Assembly (NCBI GenBank): GCA_003132905.1
Contig: PKZC01000303.1
Coordinates: forward strand, 1-5,687
Direction: 5' to 3'
Source of the DNA: Bryobacterales bacterium
GTDB lineage: Bacteria; Acidobacteriota; Terriglobia; Bryobacterales; Bryobacteraceae
DNA: 5,687 nt
This document shows, piece after piece, positions 2-5,687 of the stretch. A program made the translations under genes and the position numbers. The notes beneath the pieces were generated by a model, which worked only from the letters and a program-made list of their open reading frames with translations, was not told the DNA's origin and ran no database searches. Position 1 is the first letter of the stretch. Each line of letters begins with the position of its first letter.

Positions 2-253
2 TGGAAGAACGCCCCGGCGGGGCTATTGAGAAATGACATGTCGCCGAAGCCGGCTTACACGGCTTTAAAGGATCTGATCAAAAAGCAATGGTGGACCCGC
101 GCCGAAGAAGTTGCGGATGCCAGCGGCGATGTTCGCTTAAGAGGTTTTTACGGCAGCTATGAATTGACGGCGCAATCCGGAGGACGGCATTTGCGCGGCG
201 AATTTACATTTGACTCCGAGAGCGCGAAAGCCATCGAGGTCCATCTTCAATGA
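2..253 (+). CDS. GH10-like glycoside hydrolase (endo-1,4-beta-xylanase family), C-terminal fragment
   Basis: The reading frame is already open at base 2 and ends at TGA 251-253, giving the last 83 residues of a protein that starts before the window. An internal ATG at 26 is not the real start, because the family motif begins upstream of it. Fragment residues 4-19 (APAGLLRNDMSPKPAY) and 30-32 (WWT) match the end of the TIM barrel in many bacterial GH10 xylanase-like proteins, where a W-x-x-APAGL(L/V)R stretch precedes PKPAY and a WW pair. The last 40 or so residues (GDVRLRGFYGSYELTA onward) form a short beta-rich tail also known from this GH10 variant. GH10 enzymes hydrolyse beta-1,4-xylan or related beta-glycans with a retaining mechanism. 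The catalytic glutamates and any signal peptide lie outside the window, so activity, substrate and export cannot be judged. It sits 52 nt upstream of a second hydrolase gene on the same strand, so co-transcription is plausible. Family call fairly sure; substrate unknown. Confidence 0.82.
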   Translation, partial: WKNAPAGLLRNDMSPKPAYTALKDLIKKQWWTRAEEVADASGDVRLRGFYGSYELTAQSGGRHLRGEFTFDSESAKAIEVHLQ

Positions 254-305: not shown

Positions 306-419
306 ATGAGATCACAAAAACCAAGTTCGTCATCCTTGACTTCTATTCTGCGCATCGCCGGCCTGACAGCGATGATTGCTCCGATATTGTTGCTATGCCC
401 GCTTTCACAAGCGCAGGCA
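306..419 (+). other. Signal peptide coding segment (residues 1-38)
   Basis: The N-terminus has Arg2 and Lys5, a Ser-rich stretch, a hydrophobic segment (about IAGLTAMIAPILLL) and then LSQAQA before SPAP. The A-Q-A at 36-38 fits signal peptidase I. Cys31 follows LLL, but Leu at the -1 position does not suit a lipobox, so a lipoprotein is less likely. Confidence 0.85.
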
Positions 420-3400
420 AGCCCGGCTCCCACCATCACGAAGATTTCCCCCACCGCGGTCAATCCCAAGGGCGGAGCGGTTATTACGATTACGGGAACT
501 AATTTTGTAAGTGGCGCGACGGTCACGATTGCATCGAATAGTGCAACGGGCGTCACTTTCGTCAGTAAAACTAGTTTGAAAGCCACCGTCCCTGCGTCCA
601 CAGGCGGCGCCGAGGGCCCGGCGAATGTGACGGTGACCAATCCCGATACTCAAAGCGCAACTTTGACAAATGGCCTGACGTACAAGCTTGCCGCGCCCAC
701 CGTCACCTCGATCTCCCCCACTGTCGCCACGGCCGCGGGTGGCACCGTGATTACGATTACGGGCACTAATTTCGTTCTCGGCGCGACGGTCAGCTTCGGA
801 GCCAATGCCGGCACCAACGTCGTGTTCACCAGCAAGACCAGTCTGAAAGCCACCGCCCCAGCTTCCACGAACAAAGCGGAAGGCCAAGTGAACGTAACCG
901 TGACCAATCCCGATGGTCAAGCGGGGACGCTAACAAACGGCTTGATGTATCAATTTCCGGCGCCGACAATCACACAAATTTCACCCACGACAGCTTCGCC
1001 CAAAGGCGGAGCCGGGATCACGATTACGGGCACCAATTTTGTGAGCGGTGCGACGGTGATGTTCGGAGCGAATAGCGCAACCGCGGTTACCTTTAACAGT
1101 TCCACCAGCCTGAAGGCCACGGCACCGGCCTCAACCAATAAAGCTGAGGGTCCGGTGAACGTGGTGGTAACGAATCCGGACGGCCAGGCGGCCACTTTGA
1201 CCAACGGGTTGATGTACCAATATGCTGCTCCCACGATTACTTCCATTTCGCCCGCGGTCTCATCCACCAGCGGCGGCGCGGTAATCACGATTACCGGGAA
1301 CAACTTCTTAACTGGCGCGACCGTGAGTTTCGGTCTTAATAATGCGACCAATGTAGTATTCGTCAGCAAAACCAGCCTGCAGGCCACCACGCCAGCTTCC
1401 ACCAACAGCGCAGAAGGCAACGTGAACGTAACGGTAACCAATCCCGATAGCCAGGCTGCGACTTTGACGGGAGGGTTGCTCTATCACCTTCCGCCGAGTT
1501 TGACATCTATAACGCCGGCATTCGGGCTACCGGCCGGTGGATATACGGTCGTCCTGAACGGTCAATACTTCCGCGCGGGTGCAGCGGTGCTATTCGGTAC
1601 CGTGCCCGCGACGTCCGTCGCCTTCAACAGCAACACGACCCTGACTGTGGGAGTTCCGGCCCAAGCGGCCGGTCTTGTGAACGTGACTGTCACGGACACC
1701 GACGGACTGACCACAACACTAAATAACGGATTCAACTACACGCCCGTGGACGTCACGCAGGTGAGCCCCGTAATCGGGCCAATCAGCGGCGGCAATACAG
1801 TCACCATTACAGGAATTGGATTCACGAGCGGATCCACTGTGAGCTTCGGCGCTACGGCGGCCACCTCCGTGACATTCGTTTCGTCGACGACGCTAACTGC
1901 GGTGGCGCCGACCCATGCCTCCGGGATGGTGAGTGTCACGGTTGTAAGTTCGAATGGAACCGGGATTCTTCCGCAGGCTTATGATTTCTCCGGCGGAGCG
2001 ATCATTTCAAGCGTGTCACCATCCTCCGGACTGCTGGCGGGTGGCAACACCGTTACAGTGAAGGGCTTCAACCTGAAGTCGGTAACTCAAGTCCTTTTCG
2101 GGAGCACGCCGGTTGCGATCACCAGCACCAGTTCAAACGCAATTGTCGTGACCGCCCCAGCATTTCCAGGCGGCGCGAATCCGGTAGCGGTTAAAGTTAT
2201 TAACCCTAACGGATCGTACACCCTGCCAAGTGCGTACGATTATTCGTTATTGATTCTCACGCAGGGTCTAGACGATGCCTATCCCACTTTTCCCTACAGC
2301 AACACCTTAGCGGTGACCGGTGGAACCGGGCCTTACAACTGGACGATTACATCGGGAGCATTACCTACGGGCTTGGGGCTCAACGCGTCCACAGGCGTTA
2401 TCAGTGGAATGCCGGCGGCCAATTATGCCACCTACACGATCGGCTTGCAGGTAGCGGATTCGTCGGTGCCCCCGAATATCGCTACTACGTCGCTGACCTT
2501 CAATGTGCTCTTTGGCTTCAGCTCCGAAACGATTCCCGCGAATTTATTCGGGATGATTCTCTACGATCAAACCACGTGGCCAACCGTGCAGTTTGGCGCG
2601 CTGGGAAAGGGCTTGGGGACTACATGGCCTTTTATCGAACAAACCCAAGGAGTGTATAACTGGACGGCGCTCGATGAGTATGTGGCCGATGCCGCGGCTC
2701 ATCAGGTGCCCGGCTCGAACACCCCATTCACTATCTACTGGACGAATGCGAACGTGCCACCATGGGCAGCCTCCGATACCACCACCTGCACGACCTACTT
2801 GGGAACAGTCATATCCGCTTGCACCAGCACGGTCAGCAATATTCAATATCTTACGGATTTCATGACCGCCCTGGTCACTCGCTATAACGGAGGGCCCGGA
2901 TCTCCTGGGCCGATTCAGATTTATGAGTTATGGAACGAGCCGAACGTGATCAACGTTTATACCGGAAGCTTCGCAGACCTGGCTACCTTAACTGCGACCG
3001 CGTACAACGTCATCCGGGCCAACAACCCCAGCGCGATCATTCTTTCGCCCTCGCCCACGTCAGCGGGCTATCTGGAGACTTACCTCACTACGCCGGGCGC
3101 GCCGCTGGGTGTGGACGCAATCGCAATTCATGGCTATCCCGATGTCACGCAGGACGATGTGGCGGAAGCGATCACGGGCTTCAAGAGCGTCAATATCAAA
3201 CTTTCGATGATCCAGGCCGGGGTAGGACCAAAGCCGATCTGGGATACAGAATCGTCGTGGGGAGGACCACTGGCCATCCCCGATCCGGATTTGCGATCAG
3301 CCTTCGTGGCACGCACCTTCCTGCTGCATTGGTCGGCGGGCATCCACAACATGTATTGGTACGGCTGGGATGCGCCCGATTGGGGAACGCTGTATTATCC

Positions 3401-5324
3401 GCCACCGATCGGCGCTACGCCAGCCGCCACCGCATATAACGTCACTTTCAACTGGATGGTGGGCGCATCCATGCCCGCGCCTTGCTCGGCCAATGGCGGG
3501 TCGACGTTTCTGGCCGTATATACCTGTCAGCTCACTCGGCCCGGCGGTTATACCGCGCTCGCCGTCTGGGATACGACCCAGACTTGCAACGCCGGCACGT
3601 GTACTTCTTCCACCTTTATTCCGCCACCGCAATACACACAGTATCGCGACTTGACTGGCCTGGTTACCACCATCAGCCCTAGCCAGCCGGTCCAGATCGG
3701 CGCGAAGCCGATCCTATTCGAGACTGGAAATCCGCCGGGGGATCCGCCGCCGCCGCCGAATGGGACCATTTCTTATTCGGGATTGACACCCGCCTTATCT
3801 AGCACCGCGCAGACCCATCCTTATAACCCGCCGGTGCCCGCATCGTCCAATCAGGCGCCGAACACGACTCCAGCTTTGGGCCAGATCGCCCCGGTGAATC
3901 TCTTGGTGATGCCGGGACTTTCGGCGCCCAACTTCGATATGCAAGCAATCGATTCCGATGCCACTCTCGCCGTAGGCACTACGCAAGTGATGCAATGGGC
4001 GGATTTCGGTCTGGAAGTCTACAACAAGAGCGGCCAGGCACTGGTAGGCGTCCAAGGGACCGCCTTCTGGTCGTCAAACAGTCCCTGCACCTACGGGGTC
4101 AACGCGGACGGAACCGTCCAGTTCGACAAAATGGCTTCGGTGTGGGTGGTGGGTATGCGGTCTGGATCGAACACGGAATGCATCGCGATTTCGCAAACCT
4201 CCGACGCGACGCAGCAGTACAACGAGTACGCCCTGCAGTATATCGATGCCCTGCATCCGGCGTACCAGATGGATTACCCCAAGCTCGGAGTATGGCCGGA
4301 CGGATACTACATCGTTTTCGACATGCTCAACCCCCCACCGCCGTTGGGAACGGGCGACTACACTCCTGCATACTCCGTGGTCTGCGCTTTAGAACGATCC
4401 GCCATGCTCCTCGGCGCGCCCAATCCACAAACCATCTGTTTCACAACCGAATACAACAACAACACCGGCTTCTTCCACTTGCTTCCCTCGGACATGGACG
4501 CTGCGGCTCCGCCTCCGGCTGGGTCGCCGAACCATATTTTCACCTTTGCTAAACCCGTTACTGTGCCCCCGGCGGTCTCTCAGTATCATCTTTACCGCTA
4601 CGAGTTCCATGTGAACTACGCCACACCATCGGCGAGCACGCTCAGCGGGCCTTTTCAGGTGGATACTAACGCTTTCGCAAATCTCATGCCGGCCTGCGGC
4701 GCAGGAAACTCCAATTGCGTGCCGCAGCCTGCACCAGCGACAACGCCGCTGGATTCAGTGGGCGGTTATCTGATGGGCCGTGCGGCTTATAGGAATTTTG
4801 GAACCTATGAATCGCTGGTGTTCTCTCAGGCTGCCCAGACCTCAGCCACCAGCCCCGTTGGAGTCAGCTGGTATGAGCTGCGTAACCTCTCGACCATTCC
4901 GACCATTTACCAGAGCGGGTTCTTACAAGCGGCAACCAGCTCAACCACGCCGGATGGTTTCAGCCGCTGGATGAGTGCCGCCGCTGAGGATAACGTGGGG
5001 AACATCGCCATGGGCTATAGCATTTCGGGTGCGGCGGCCACTTCGTATTACAGTGGACTCCCCGGCCTGGCCATTGATGCCAGAAGCCCCTCCACGCCGC
5101 TCGGTACGCTACTCACCGAGGAGATCGTCTTCCAGGGGGTAAGTGTGGAGGTTCCGAATCCTCCACCCGCGCTAAAGATCGAACGCTGGGGTGCGGTATC
5201 GGGCATGGCGATCGACCCGGTGGATCAGTGCACGTTCTGGTTTACCGGCCAATACCAGCCCGCGCCCGGCGTTTACAACTGGTCCACAGAACTAGTTTCA
5301 TTCAAGTTGCCGAATTGTCACTAA
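306..5324 (+). CDS. Secreted multidomain glycoside hydrolase: 7x IPT/TIG, putative Ig, GH39-like clan GH-A barrel, C-terminal secreted module
   Basis: The product is 1,672 residues. Residues 1-38 are a Sec signal peptide: basic N-terminus, hydrophobic core around 17-33, and an AQA site before Ser39, so the protein should be exported. Residues 42-646 are seven IPT/TIG immunoglobulin-like domains. Residues 648-735 are a putative-Ig domain with the hallmark LPTGLGLNASTGVISGMP. Residues 737-1139 are a clan GH-A barrel resembling GH39/PslG, with probable acid/base Glu878 in ELWNEPN, probable nucleophile Glu982 in WDTESSW, His942 in IHGYPD and Trp1018 near strand 8. A proline-rich linker (1141-1153) leads to a module at 1154-1672 of a widespread secreted family of unknown function. 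The IPT and Ig parts have no cysteine; the barrel has six and the last module eight, which fits disulfides in an exported protein. No sortase, PEP-CTERM or other C-terminal anchor is visible. It likely cleaves a beta-linked polysaccharide outside the cell; the substrate is unknown. Neighbouring sugar genes suggest exopolysaccharide processing. Domain calls are strong, function is inferred. Confidence 0.9.
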   Translation: MRSQKPSSSSLTSILRIAGLTAMIAPILLLCPLSQAQASPAPTITKISPTAVNPKGGAVITITGTNFVSGATVTIASNSATGVTFVSKTSLKATVPASTGGAEGPANVTVTNPDTQSATLTNGLTYKLAAPTVTSISPTVATAAGGTVITITGTNFVLGATVSFGANAGTNVVFTSKTSLKATAPASTNKAEGQVNVTVTNPDGQAGTLTNGLMYQFPAPTITQISPTTASPKGGAGITITGTNFVSGATVMFGANSATAVTFNSSTSLKATAPASTNKAEGPVNVVVTNPDGQAATLTNGLMYQYAAPTITSISPAVSSTSGGAVITITGNNFLTGATVSFGLNNATNVVFVSKTSLQATTPASTNSAEGNVNVTVTNPDSQAATLTGGLLYHLPPSLTSITPAFGLPAGGYTVVLNGQYFRAGAAVLFGTVPATSVAFNSNTTLTVGVPAQAAGLVNVTVTDTDGLTTTLNNGFNYTPVDVTQVSPVIGPISGGNTVTITGIGFTSGSTVSFGATAATSVTFVSSTTLTAVAPTHASGMVSVTVVSSNGTGILPQAYDFSGGAIISSVSPSSGLLAGGNTVTVKGFNLKSVTQVLFGSTPVAITSTSSNAIVVTAPAFPGGANPVAVKVINPNGSYTLPSAYDYSLLILTQGLDDAYPTFPYSNTLAVTGGTGPYNWTITSGALPTGLGLNASTGVISGMPAANYATYTIGLQVADSSVPPNIATTSLTFNVLFGFSSETIPANLFGMILYDQTTWPTVQFGALGKGLGTTWPFIEQTQGVYNWTALDEYVADAAAHQVPGSNTPFTIYWTNANVPPWAASDTTTCTTYLGTVISACTSTVSNIQYLTDFMTALVTRYNGGPGSPGPIQIYELWNEPNVINVYTGSFADLATLTATAYNVIRANNPSAIILSPSPTSAGYLETYLTTPGAPLGVDAIAIHGYPDVTQDDVAEAITGFKSVNIKLSMIQAGVGPKPIWDTESSWGGPLAIPDPDLRSAFVARTFLLHWSAGIHNMYWYGWDAPDWGTLYYPPPIGATPAATAYNVTFNWMVGASMPAPCSANGGSTFLAVYTCQLTRPGGYTALAVWDTTQTCNAGTCTSSTFIPPPQYTQYRDLTGLVTTISPSQPVQIGAKPILFETGNPPGDPPPPPNGTISYSGLTPALSSTAQTHPYNPPVPASSNQAPNTTPALGQIAPVNLLVMPGLSAPNFDMQAIDSDATLAVGTTQVMQWADFGLEVYNKSGQALVGVQGTAFWSSNSPCTYGVNADGTVQFDKMASVWVVGMRSGSNTECIAISQTSDATQQYNEYALQYIDALHPAYQMDYPKLGVWPDGYYIVFDMLNPPPPLGTGDYTPAYSVVCALERSAMLLGAPNPQTICFTTEYNNNTGFFHLLPSDMDAAAPPPAGSPNHIFTFAKPVTVPPAVSQYHLYRYEFHVNYATPSASTLSGPFQVDTNAFANLMPACGAGNSNCVPQPAPATTPLDSVGGYLMGRAAYRNFGTYESLVFSQAAQTSATSPVGVSWYELRNLSTIPTIYQSGFLQAATSSTTPDGFSRWMSAAAEDNVGNIAMGYSISGAAATSYYSGLPGLAIDARSPSTPLGTLLTEEIVFQGVSVEVPNPPPALKIERWGAVSGMAIDPVDQCTFWFTGQYQPAPGVYNWSTELVSFKLPNCH
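429..2243 (+). repeat. Array of seven tandem IPT/TIG domain repeats
   Basis: Repeats begin near nt 429, 696, 963, 1230, 1494, 1749 and 2001 (residues 42, 131, 220, 309, 397, 482 and 566). The first three periods are exactly 267 nt (89 residues). Later units are 84-88 residues and more diverged. Each unit has the IPT/TIG pattern: a P-x-(I/V/L)-T-x-I-(S/T)-P entry, a GG turn, (V/I)TITG-x-(N/G)F, usually VxFG (replaced by VTIAS in repeat 1), a T-x-L strand, (A/V)P, VxVTxxxG and a closing aromatic Y. A shared DNA core similar to ATTACGATTACGGG recurs at 483, 750, 1017 and 1284, exactly 267 nt apart. IPT/TIG domains are immunoglobulin-like beta-sandwiches of extracellular proteins; here they probably form a rigid stalk or a glycan- or surface-binding region that holds the hydrolase away from the cell. 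Confidence 0.92.
2247..2510 (+). other. Putative Ig (He_PIG-like) domain coding segment
   Basis: Residues 648-735 contain YSNTLAVTGGTGPYNWTI, then LPTGLGLNASTGVISGMP, then YTIGLQVADSS and a closing LTFNVLF strand. This order (G-G-T-x-P-Y-x-W, L-P-x-G-L-x-L, T-G-x-I-S-G-x-P, D-S) is typical of the putative-Ig/He_PIG family common in large bacterial surface proteins. It directly precedes the catalytic barrel and probably acts as a spacer. Confidence 0.85.
2514..3722 (+). other. Clan GH-A catalytic module, GH39/PslG-like
   Basis: Residues 737-1139. The start (IPANLFGMIL, then a W-P-x-x-Q-F-G-x-L segment and GVYNWTALDEYV) resembles the first strand and helix of GH39-type barrels. IYWTNANVPPWAA fits strand 3. 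IQIYELWNEPN carries the strand-4 N-E-P with Glu878 as predicted acid/base. IAIHGYPD gives the conserved His and Tyr. PIWDTESSWGG carries Glu982 as predicted nucleophile on strand 7, about 104 residues later, a spacing typical of retaining clan GH-A enzymes. NMYWYGWD fits strand 8. The end (YRDLTGLVTTI, then PILFE) looks like the small beta-domain packed against the barrel in this group. Six cysteines (828, 839, 1060, 1074, 1094, 1099) could form three short-range disulfides. GH39 includes beta-xylosidases, iduronidases and the Psl exopolysaccharide hydrolase PslG; GH5-like or an unassigned GH-A family are alternatives. Confidence 0.8.
3744..3758 (+). repeat. (CCG)5 trinucleotide tract coding Pro1147-Pro1151
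   Basis: Five perfect in-frame CCG codons lie in the linker GNPPGDPPPPPNG between the hydrolase module and the C-terminal module. The tract keeps frame, so unit gain or loss would change linker length without a frameshift. A run of five prolines is a known type of ribosome-pausing sequence that needs elongation factor P. Confidence 0.8.
3765..5321 (+). other. C-terminal module of a widespread secreted bacterial family of unknown function
   Basis: Residues 1154-1672. It has ordered motifs that I recognise from many large secreted proteins of acidobacteria and similar soil bacteria: an entry with AVGTTQVMQW and LEVYNKSGQ, then FDKMASVWVVGM, CIAISQTSD, YPKLGVWPDGYYIVFDM (1324-1340), FTGQY-type aromatic segments, AYRNFGTYESLVFS (1494-1507), WYELRN, RWMSAAAEDNVGNIAMGYS and RWGAVSGMAIDPVDQCTFW (1627-1645). 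The repeating beta-strand and W/Y/G pattern suggests a beta-propeller or similar all-beta fold; this is inference. Eight cysteines (1261, 1292, 1360, 1378, 1464, 1471, 1642, 1671) allow four disulfides. No catalytic role is known to me. Two motifs look altered relative to the usual family form as I remember it (see findings). Confidence 0.75.
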
Positions 5325-5363: not shown

Positions 5364-5369
5364 GGAGGA
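5364..5369 (+). promoter_or_regulatory. Strong Shine-Dalgarno site for the epimerase gene
   Basis: GGAGGA sits 7 nt before ATG 5377, a near-perfect match to the anti-Shine-Dalgarno complement at good spacing. It fixes the start of the downstream gene and is much stronger than the site of the large gene upstream. Confidence 0.85.
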
Positions 5370-5376
5370 ACTTATC

Positions 5377-5687
5377 ATGCAGACTTATAAAGGCAAAGTA
5401 CTCGTTACAGGCGCCGGCGGATTTATCGGCCATTATCTCACCACTTACTTAGTCAAGCACGGTTACTGGGTGCGGGGCGTCGATATCAAAGAACCCGAAT
5501 ACGCGCCCACGGACGCGCACGAATTCGAACTGCTGGACCTGCGGCGTTTCGATAACGCACTCATAGCCACTCGCGGAATCTCGCATGTTTACGCGCTGGC
5601 GGCCGATATGGGCGGGATTGGATTCATCGAATCCAACAAAGGAATTATCGTCCGGAACAACACGCTGATCAATCTTCACACCATCGA
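5377..5687 (+). CDS. NAD-dependent nucleotide-sugar epimerase (extended SDR, GDP-mannose 3,5-epimerase-like), N-terminal fragment
   Basis: The frame is open from ATG 5377 to the window end and gives the first 103 residues of a family usually about 310-380 residues long. Residues 7-18 (KVLVTGAGGFIG) are the Rossmann G-x-x-G-x-x-G dinucleotide site of extended SDRs, and Asp36 at the end of strand 2 favours NAD over NADP. LLDLR (52-56) and HVYALAA (70-76) are further SDR core motifs. ADMGGIGFIESN (76-87) followed by NNTLIN is strikingly like plant GDP-mannose 3,5-epimerase (ADMGGMGFIQSN), which turns GDP-mannose into GDP-L-galactose and GDP-L-gulose. The catalytic S/T and YxxxK lie beyond the window. 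Bacterial relatives with this motif are often annotated only as NAD-dependent epimerase, and another NDP-sugar substrate is possible. The protein should be cytoplasmic and supply activated sugar for surface polysaccharide. It follows the large secreted hydrolase gene after 52 nt, probably in the same transcript. Superfamily certain; substrate inferred. Confidence 0.88.
   Translation, partial: MQTYKGKVLVTGAGGFIGHYLTTYLVKHGYWVRGVDIKEPEYAPTDAHEFELLDLRRFDNALIATRGISHVYALAADMGGIGFIESNKGIIVRNNTLINLHTI

Follow-up and report, generated by a model that had tools for sequence, protein, structure and literature searches.

An apparently secreted protein joining TIG domains, a GH39-like putative glycosidase and a predicted beta-propeller, with a possible role in exopolysaccharide processing

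Positions 1-5,687 of contig PKZC01000303.1, from a Bryobacterales bacterium, were analysed as one stretch (the window). The window holds one complete gene, whose 1672-residue product joins, in this order, an apparent signal peptide, an array of seven TIG/IPT domains, an immunoglobulin-like (Ig) domain, a glycoside hydrolase (GH) domain and a C-terminal module (CT) predicted to fold as a beta-propeller (Table 1). The original prediction, made from the same DNA, had read positions 306-5324 as one fused chain, and the gene is indeed a single uninterrupted reading frame.

Table 1. Coordinates of features in the window (residue numbers refer to the 1672-residue protein)
Feature	Position	Strand	Basis
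Coding sequence, modular protein (stop codon included)	306..5324	+	single open reading frame; protein identical to P0001
Apparent signal peptide, residues ~1-38	306..419	+	hydrophobic N-terminus, read by eye
Seven TIG/IPT domains, residues 42-649	429..2252	+	PF01833, 7 stretches, E 6.5e-93; NF058597, 7 stretches
He_PIG Ig domain, residues 651-738	2256..2519	+	PF05345, E 1.1e-10
GH39-like clan GH-A hydrolase, residues ~737-1141	2514..3728	+	AlphaFold2, PDB comparison, profile match to GH39 chains
Glu878 codon, proposed acid/base	2937..2939	+	motif YELWNEP; Glu in 146/148 aligned rows
Glu982 codon, proposed nucleophile	3249..3251	+	motif WDTESSW; Glu in 147/148 aligned rows
C-terminal beta-propeller module, residues ~1150-1672	3753..5321	+	
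Upstream gene, 3' end only, GH10 xylanase-like tail	2..253	+	8b73 beta-xylanase, E 1.6e-11
Downstream gene, 5' part, GDP-mannose 3,5-epimerase-like	5377..5687	+	8sg0, E 4.2e-23; 2c54, E 2.5e-21; Pfam Epimerase, E 5.7e-11

Domains of the protein

AlphaFold2 models the hydrolase as a (beta/alpha)8 barrel with a C-terminal beta-sandwich (mean predicted local distance difference test score, pLDDT, 91.0). DSSP places strands at query residues 138-142 and 246-251 of the model, with glutamates at 146 and 250. The proposed acid/base thus follows strand 4 and the proposed nucleophile lies at strand 7, as in the clan GH-A fold, and both motifs align with those of GH39 chains in profile comparison. The original prediction of a GH39-like fold with Glu878 and Glu982 as its catalytic pair is borne out to this extent, and the structure prediction that it suggested as a check puts both residues on one modelled barrel, where strands 4 and 7 end. 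The Pfam GH39 family, PF01229, matches neither the full-length protein nor the GH stretch scanned alone, so the domain is filed as GH39-like, not GH39. (Relatives such as P0121 carry PF01229 in precomputed annotation.) Its best Pfam match is marginal: Cellulase, PF00150, whose cut-off of 23.5 it just passes with 23.6 bits. The catalytic unit would be a putative retaining glycosidase resembling PslG of Pseudomonas aeruginosa, presumably acting in endo mode.

The TIG units begin at residues 42, 131, 220, 309, 397, 482 and 566, and together score 305.3 bits against PF01833 (curated cut-off 20.9). Tandem Repeats Finder returned 0 rows for recent exact duplication of the units. The Ig domain belongs to the He_PIG family: PF05345 scores 42.2 bits (curated cut-off 24) on stretch 2241-2522 scanned alone, and the full-length Pfam scan did not list this family.

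The C-terminal module is assigned to the propeller fold from its predicted structure. Scanned alone, it draws no match from Pfam or NCBIfam at E<=10, and at least 2660 proteins among 7992 scored candidates match it at E<=1e-3. This points to a large, very common family of secreted propellers that neither collection matches. The family shares about 100 strictly conserved residues, eight of them cysteines.

Distribution and assembly of the fusion

Domain orders were counted with four profiles run on 360 proteins, taken from three listings picked by likeness to the query. The order TIG-Ig-GH-CT occurs in 20 of them, the window protein included; one more, P0018, reads CT-TIG-Ig-GH. The other orders were: CT only, 163; GH only, 71; TIG-Ig-GH, 36 (some possibly cut by contig ends); Ig only, 30; Ig-GH, 19; CT-TIG, 6; GH-TIG, 5; TIG-GH, 4; GH-CT pieces, 3; GH-Ig-GH, 1; and CT-Ig, 1. 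The last module had been said to occur mainly without a glycosidase, and the count agrees: the 163 CT-only proteins compare with 24 that have both CT and GH (the 20 in window order, the permuted one and the three pieces). An assembly or frameshift artefact is ruled out, since the fusion is common to 20 listed proteins from several sources. Three pairs of fusions (P0007/P0014, P0009/P0015 and P0010/P0013) have longest contigs of equal length within each pair (24,555; 15,565; and 59,525, respectively), probably with two fusion genes on one contig. Three pieces of a fusion-like protein (P0145, P0212 and P0242), also on same-sized contigs (110,424), are perhaps one broken gene.

The predicted domain order is therefore real, but the suggestion that it is undescribed stands only in part. 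Among the papers listed from the open-licence PMC literature, none dealt with the TIG-Ig-GH-propeller combination, its variable spacer or its repeated assembly; the order itself is present in at least 20 database proteins, and one of these sequences, P0011, has the database name 'IPT/TIG domain/Cellulase' from JGI. The enzyme fold, the TIG array and the propeller are each of known kinds; it is the combination that was not found in that literature.

Other collections added no further fusions. None was seen among the 78 GH-relative loci of a genome-contig scan, in which the best GH relative is 45% identical. Nor was any seen in whole-genome searches, some of which covered a sample of a wider group, with 2 to 4 candidates scored per genome, and some of which were cut at E 1e-60, so that absence is not implied. 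A plasmid collection gave seven records with weak partial matches, none spanning 80% of the query. Unfused GH and propeller genes lie within ~15 kb of each other on G003:C63 and G005:C14; these contigs are apparently syntenic, with a propeller just 32% identical, and were not used.

In each of the 20 listed fusions the Ig, GH and CT domains occur once, and the number of TIG domains ranges from 2 to 16. Over residues 650-1672 the window protein is 86% identical to P0003 and 80% identical to P0004, yet these have eight and six TIG domains, respectively, against its seven. This suggests that the TIG domains act as a spacer of freely changing length, and it supports the original idea of an array that holds the enzyme at a distance, in the form of a spacer of variable length. 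The domain order can change as well, as P0018 has its propeller at the opposite end.

The GH tree (70 rows) places 19 of the 20 fusions and P0018 in one starred clade, with the TIG-Ig-GH proteins P0022-P0024 inside it; P0021 groups with TIG-Ig-GH and Ig-GH proteins. In the propeller tree (59 rows), the same 19 fusions and P0018 share one starred clade with two GH-CT pieces and five rows that have the propeller alone, and the propeller of P0021 lies among common propellers on a long branch (1.36). A single fusion clade was submitted to the approximately unbiased (AU) test with 30 hand-chosen rows from each tree, the tested group having been named after the trees were seen. The propeller tree argues against a single origin of all fusions (p 0.00045); the GH tree does not reject it (p 0.134). 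The propeller result and the placement of P0021 suggest that the propeller probably joined, or was replaced, a second time. (Among 21 N-termini viewed, that of P0021 lacks an apparent signal peptide.)

Gene neighbourhoods and proposed function

The genome scan kept 80 of 162 confirmed GH relatives, which gave the 78 loci. Pfam domains (E<=1e-5) were tallied for 120 open reading frames (130 to 900 residues, within 4.5 kb of the match) at 18 loci chosen from these; the tallies are overlapping domain counts, not separate genes. The counts include Glycos_transf_1 (9), Glyco_trans_1_4 (9), GDP_Man_Dehyd (7), Epimerase (7), WecG (6), Wzy_C (5), Glycos_transf_2 (4) and Bac_transf (2). As a control, 106 open reading frames beside 18 propeller genes were tallied in the same way, and among the 25 of 112 families listed none of the glycosyltransferase, WecG and Wzy_C kinds reached two members; the GH set covers more phyla than the control, so the matching is imperfect. 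In bulk, then, the GH relatives sit in exopolysaccharide (EPS) clusters (18 of 78 loci tallied); the window itself shows a partial epimerase gene.

That gene is related in sequence to characterised GDP-mannose 3,5-epimerases over the 103 residues inside the window; the catalytic Cys and Lys presumably lie past the window end, going by their position in the plant enzymes. Homologues of the fragment at least 58% identical occur in 8 of the 78 GH loci (L005, L010, L013, L026, L027, L030, L034 and L042), the closest, at 73%, in a Rokubacteria record (L030); another, in L002, is 41% identical. GH relatives, by contrast, mostly carry acidobacterial names. Among the 18 propeller control loci there is one weak match (L134, 36%). 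A search of 40 genomes with the epimerase at E 1e-40 gave no match, a result that carries no weight. Of the 17 genomes examined for the epimerase, 8 were picked for having it; 11 of the 17 have it in single copy, and at one copy per ~4.7 Mb about 0.3 would be expected by chance in the 1.32 Mb of loci. One Sulfotelmatobacter contig (L122; G007:C277:10000-29900) carries three GH39-like reading frames (28-34% identical) and an epimerase gene on a 20-kb stretch.

All three window genes are co-directional, with a 52-base gap between each, and GGAGG at 5364-5368 precedes the epimerase start. The upstream fragment (2-253) had no match in the Pfam scan of the window, and none of the 129 loci compared holds a relative of this xylanase-like tail.

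These observations somewhat favour a modular enzyme that is secreted and acts on the exopolysaccharide of its producer, which is also the form in which the originally proposed polysaccharide-processing role gains support from the neighbourhoods of GH relatives. The PslG-like glycosidase would trim or release the polymer outside the cytoplasm; Glu878 would serve as its acid/base and Glu982 as its nucleophile. The TIG array may serve as a variable-length spacer that keeps the enzyme away from the N-terminal end, and the propeller most likely binds the polymer or a surface, keeping the enzyme on its substrate. The fusion gene would probably lie within a locus making polymer from GDP-mannose-derived sugars. 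Several points weigh against this model. The window holds two partial flanking genes alone; Ig-rich secreted proteins also occur among the 120 neighbours (HYDIN-like Ig, 7; ASH, 6; He_PIG, 5); and no fusion was seen among the 78 loci, so that the EPS setting was observed for relatives that are 23-45% identical. Moreover, the need for PslG activity in Psl synthesis is disputed: in one study (PMC6813494) the activity supported Psl output, and work cited there found it not to be needed.

The xylanase-like tail upstream would also fit a degrader, and it is the main observation in favour of a secreted scavenger that hydrolyses polysaccharides of plants, fungi or other microbes, with the TIG domains and propeller as adhesion or binding modules. 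That reading appears unlikely, given the biosynthetic neighbours of GH relatives (glycosyltransferases, WecG and Wzy_C) and the nucleotide-sugar enzyme encoded next downstream. More doubtful still is a two-enzyme protein, in which the propeller would bear a second, lyase- or glycosidase-like active site for the same polymer. Polar residues of the propeller strictly kept over 141 rows (e.g. D1323, D1396, D1398, R1496, E1524, R1554, D1562 and E1605) would suit such a site, as would the sialidases, rhamnose-glucuronate lyase and arabinanase among its weak Foldseek matches. The best structural matches by Z, however, are YncE and WD40 propellers, followed by CylK, an enzyme, at 22.3 and lectins at ~20, and fold likeness at this level does not show function. 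A PDB profile search found no sequence relative of the propeller, and its single-sequence matches to designed propellers (E 1e-4) included no stretch that passed alone.

A bolder extension of the exopolysaccharide model, put forward tentatively and itself rather improbable, is that the fusions are tethered, EPS-remodelling enzymes of a new class. The fast-changing length of the TIG stalk would set the reach of the PslG-like glycosidase; and the propeller, drawn from an uncharacterised secreted family and joined probably twice and once at the other end, would read or modify the polymer on which the glycosidase acts, either as a lectin or through a second active site. The fusions appear to form a small family, with the window protein as one member, and offer a way to study the trimming of bacterial slime by its own producers.

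Comparison with known systems

Hydrolases of debated role are common in EPS clusters, PslG being one example (PMC6813494). A natural family that joins a hydrolase of this type to a variable spacer and a propeller makes it possible to test where such enzymes act, and by what means. PslG, a GH39 endo-beta-glucosidase of the Psl cluster, is known from crystal chains of 412-414 residues that comprise the catalytic unit alone, whereas that of the window protein is flanked by seven TIG domains, an Ig domain and a propeller. BcGH39 (5jvk) and the GH39 beta-xylosidases (4m29 and 2bfg) share the fold and catalytic motif alignment with the window hydrolase, but at 12-16% identity, with a different module set and with PF01229 unmatched in the window protein.

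The TIG-Ig-GH and Ig-GH proteins (e.g. P0121 and P0131), which can be called acidobacterial from a few source names (e.g. P0156), have the same Ig and GH core, with GH domains up to 59% identical; they differ in lacking the propeller in listed rows and, in those of ~680 residues, in having fewer TIG domains. The C-terminal module has homologues among secreted beta-propellers, such as P0245-P0247, P0278 and P0302, which are 37-52% identical to it. Members of this uncurated family usually make up a protein by themselves or form the N-terminal part of some other multi-domain protein, unlike the propeller that closes the window protein.
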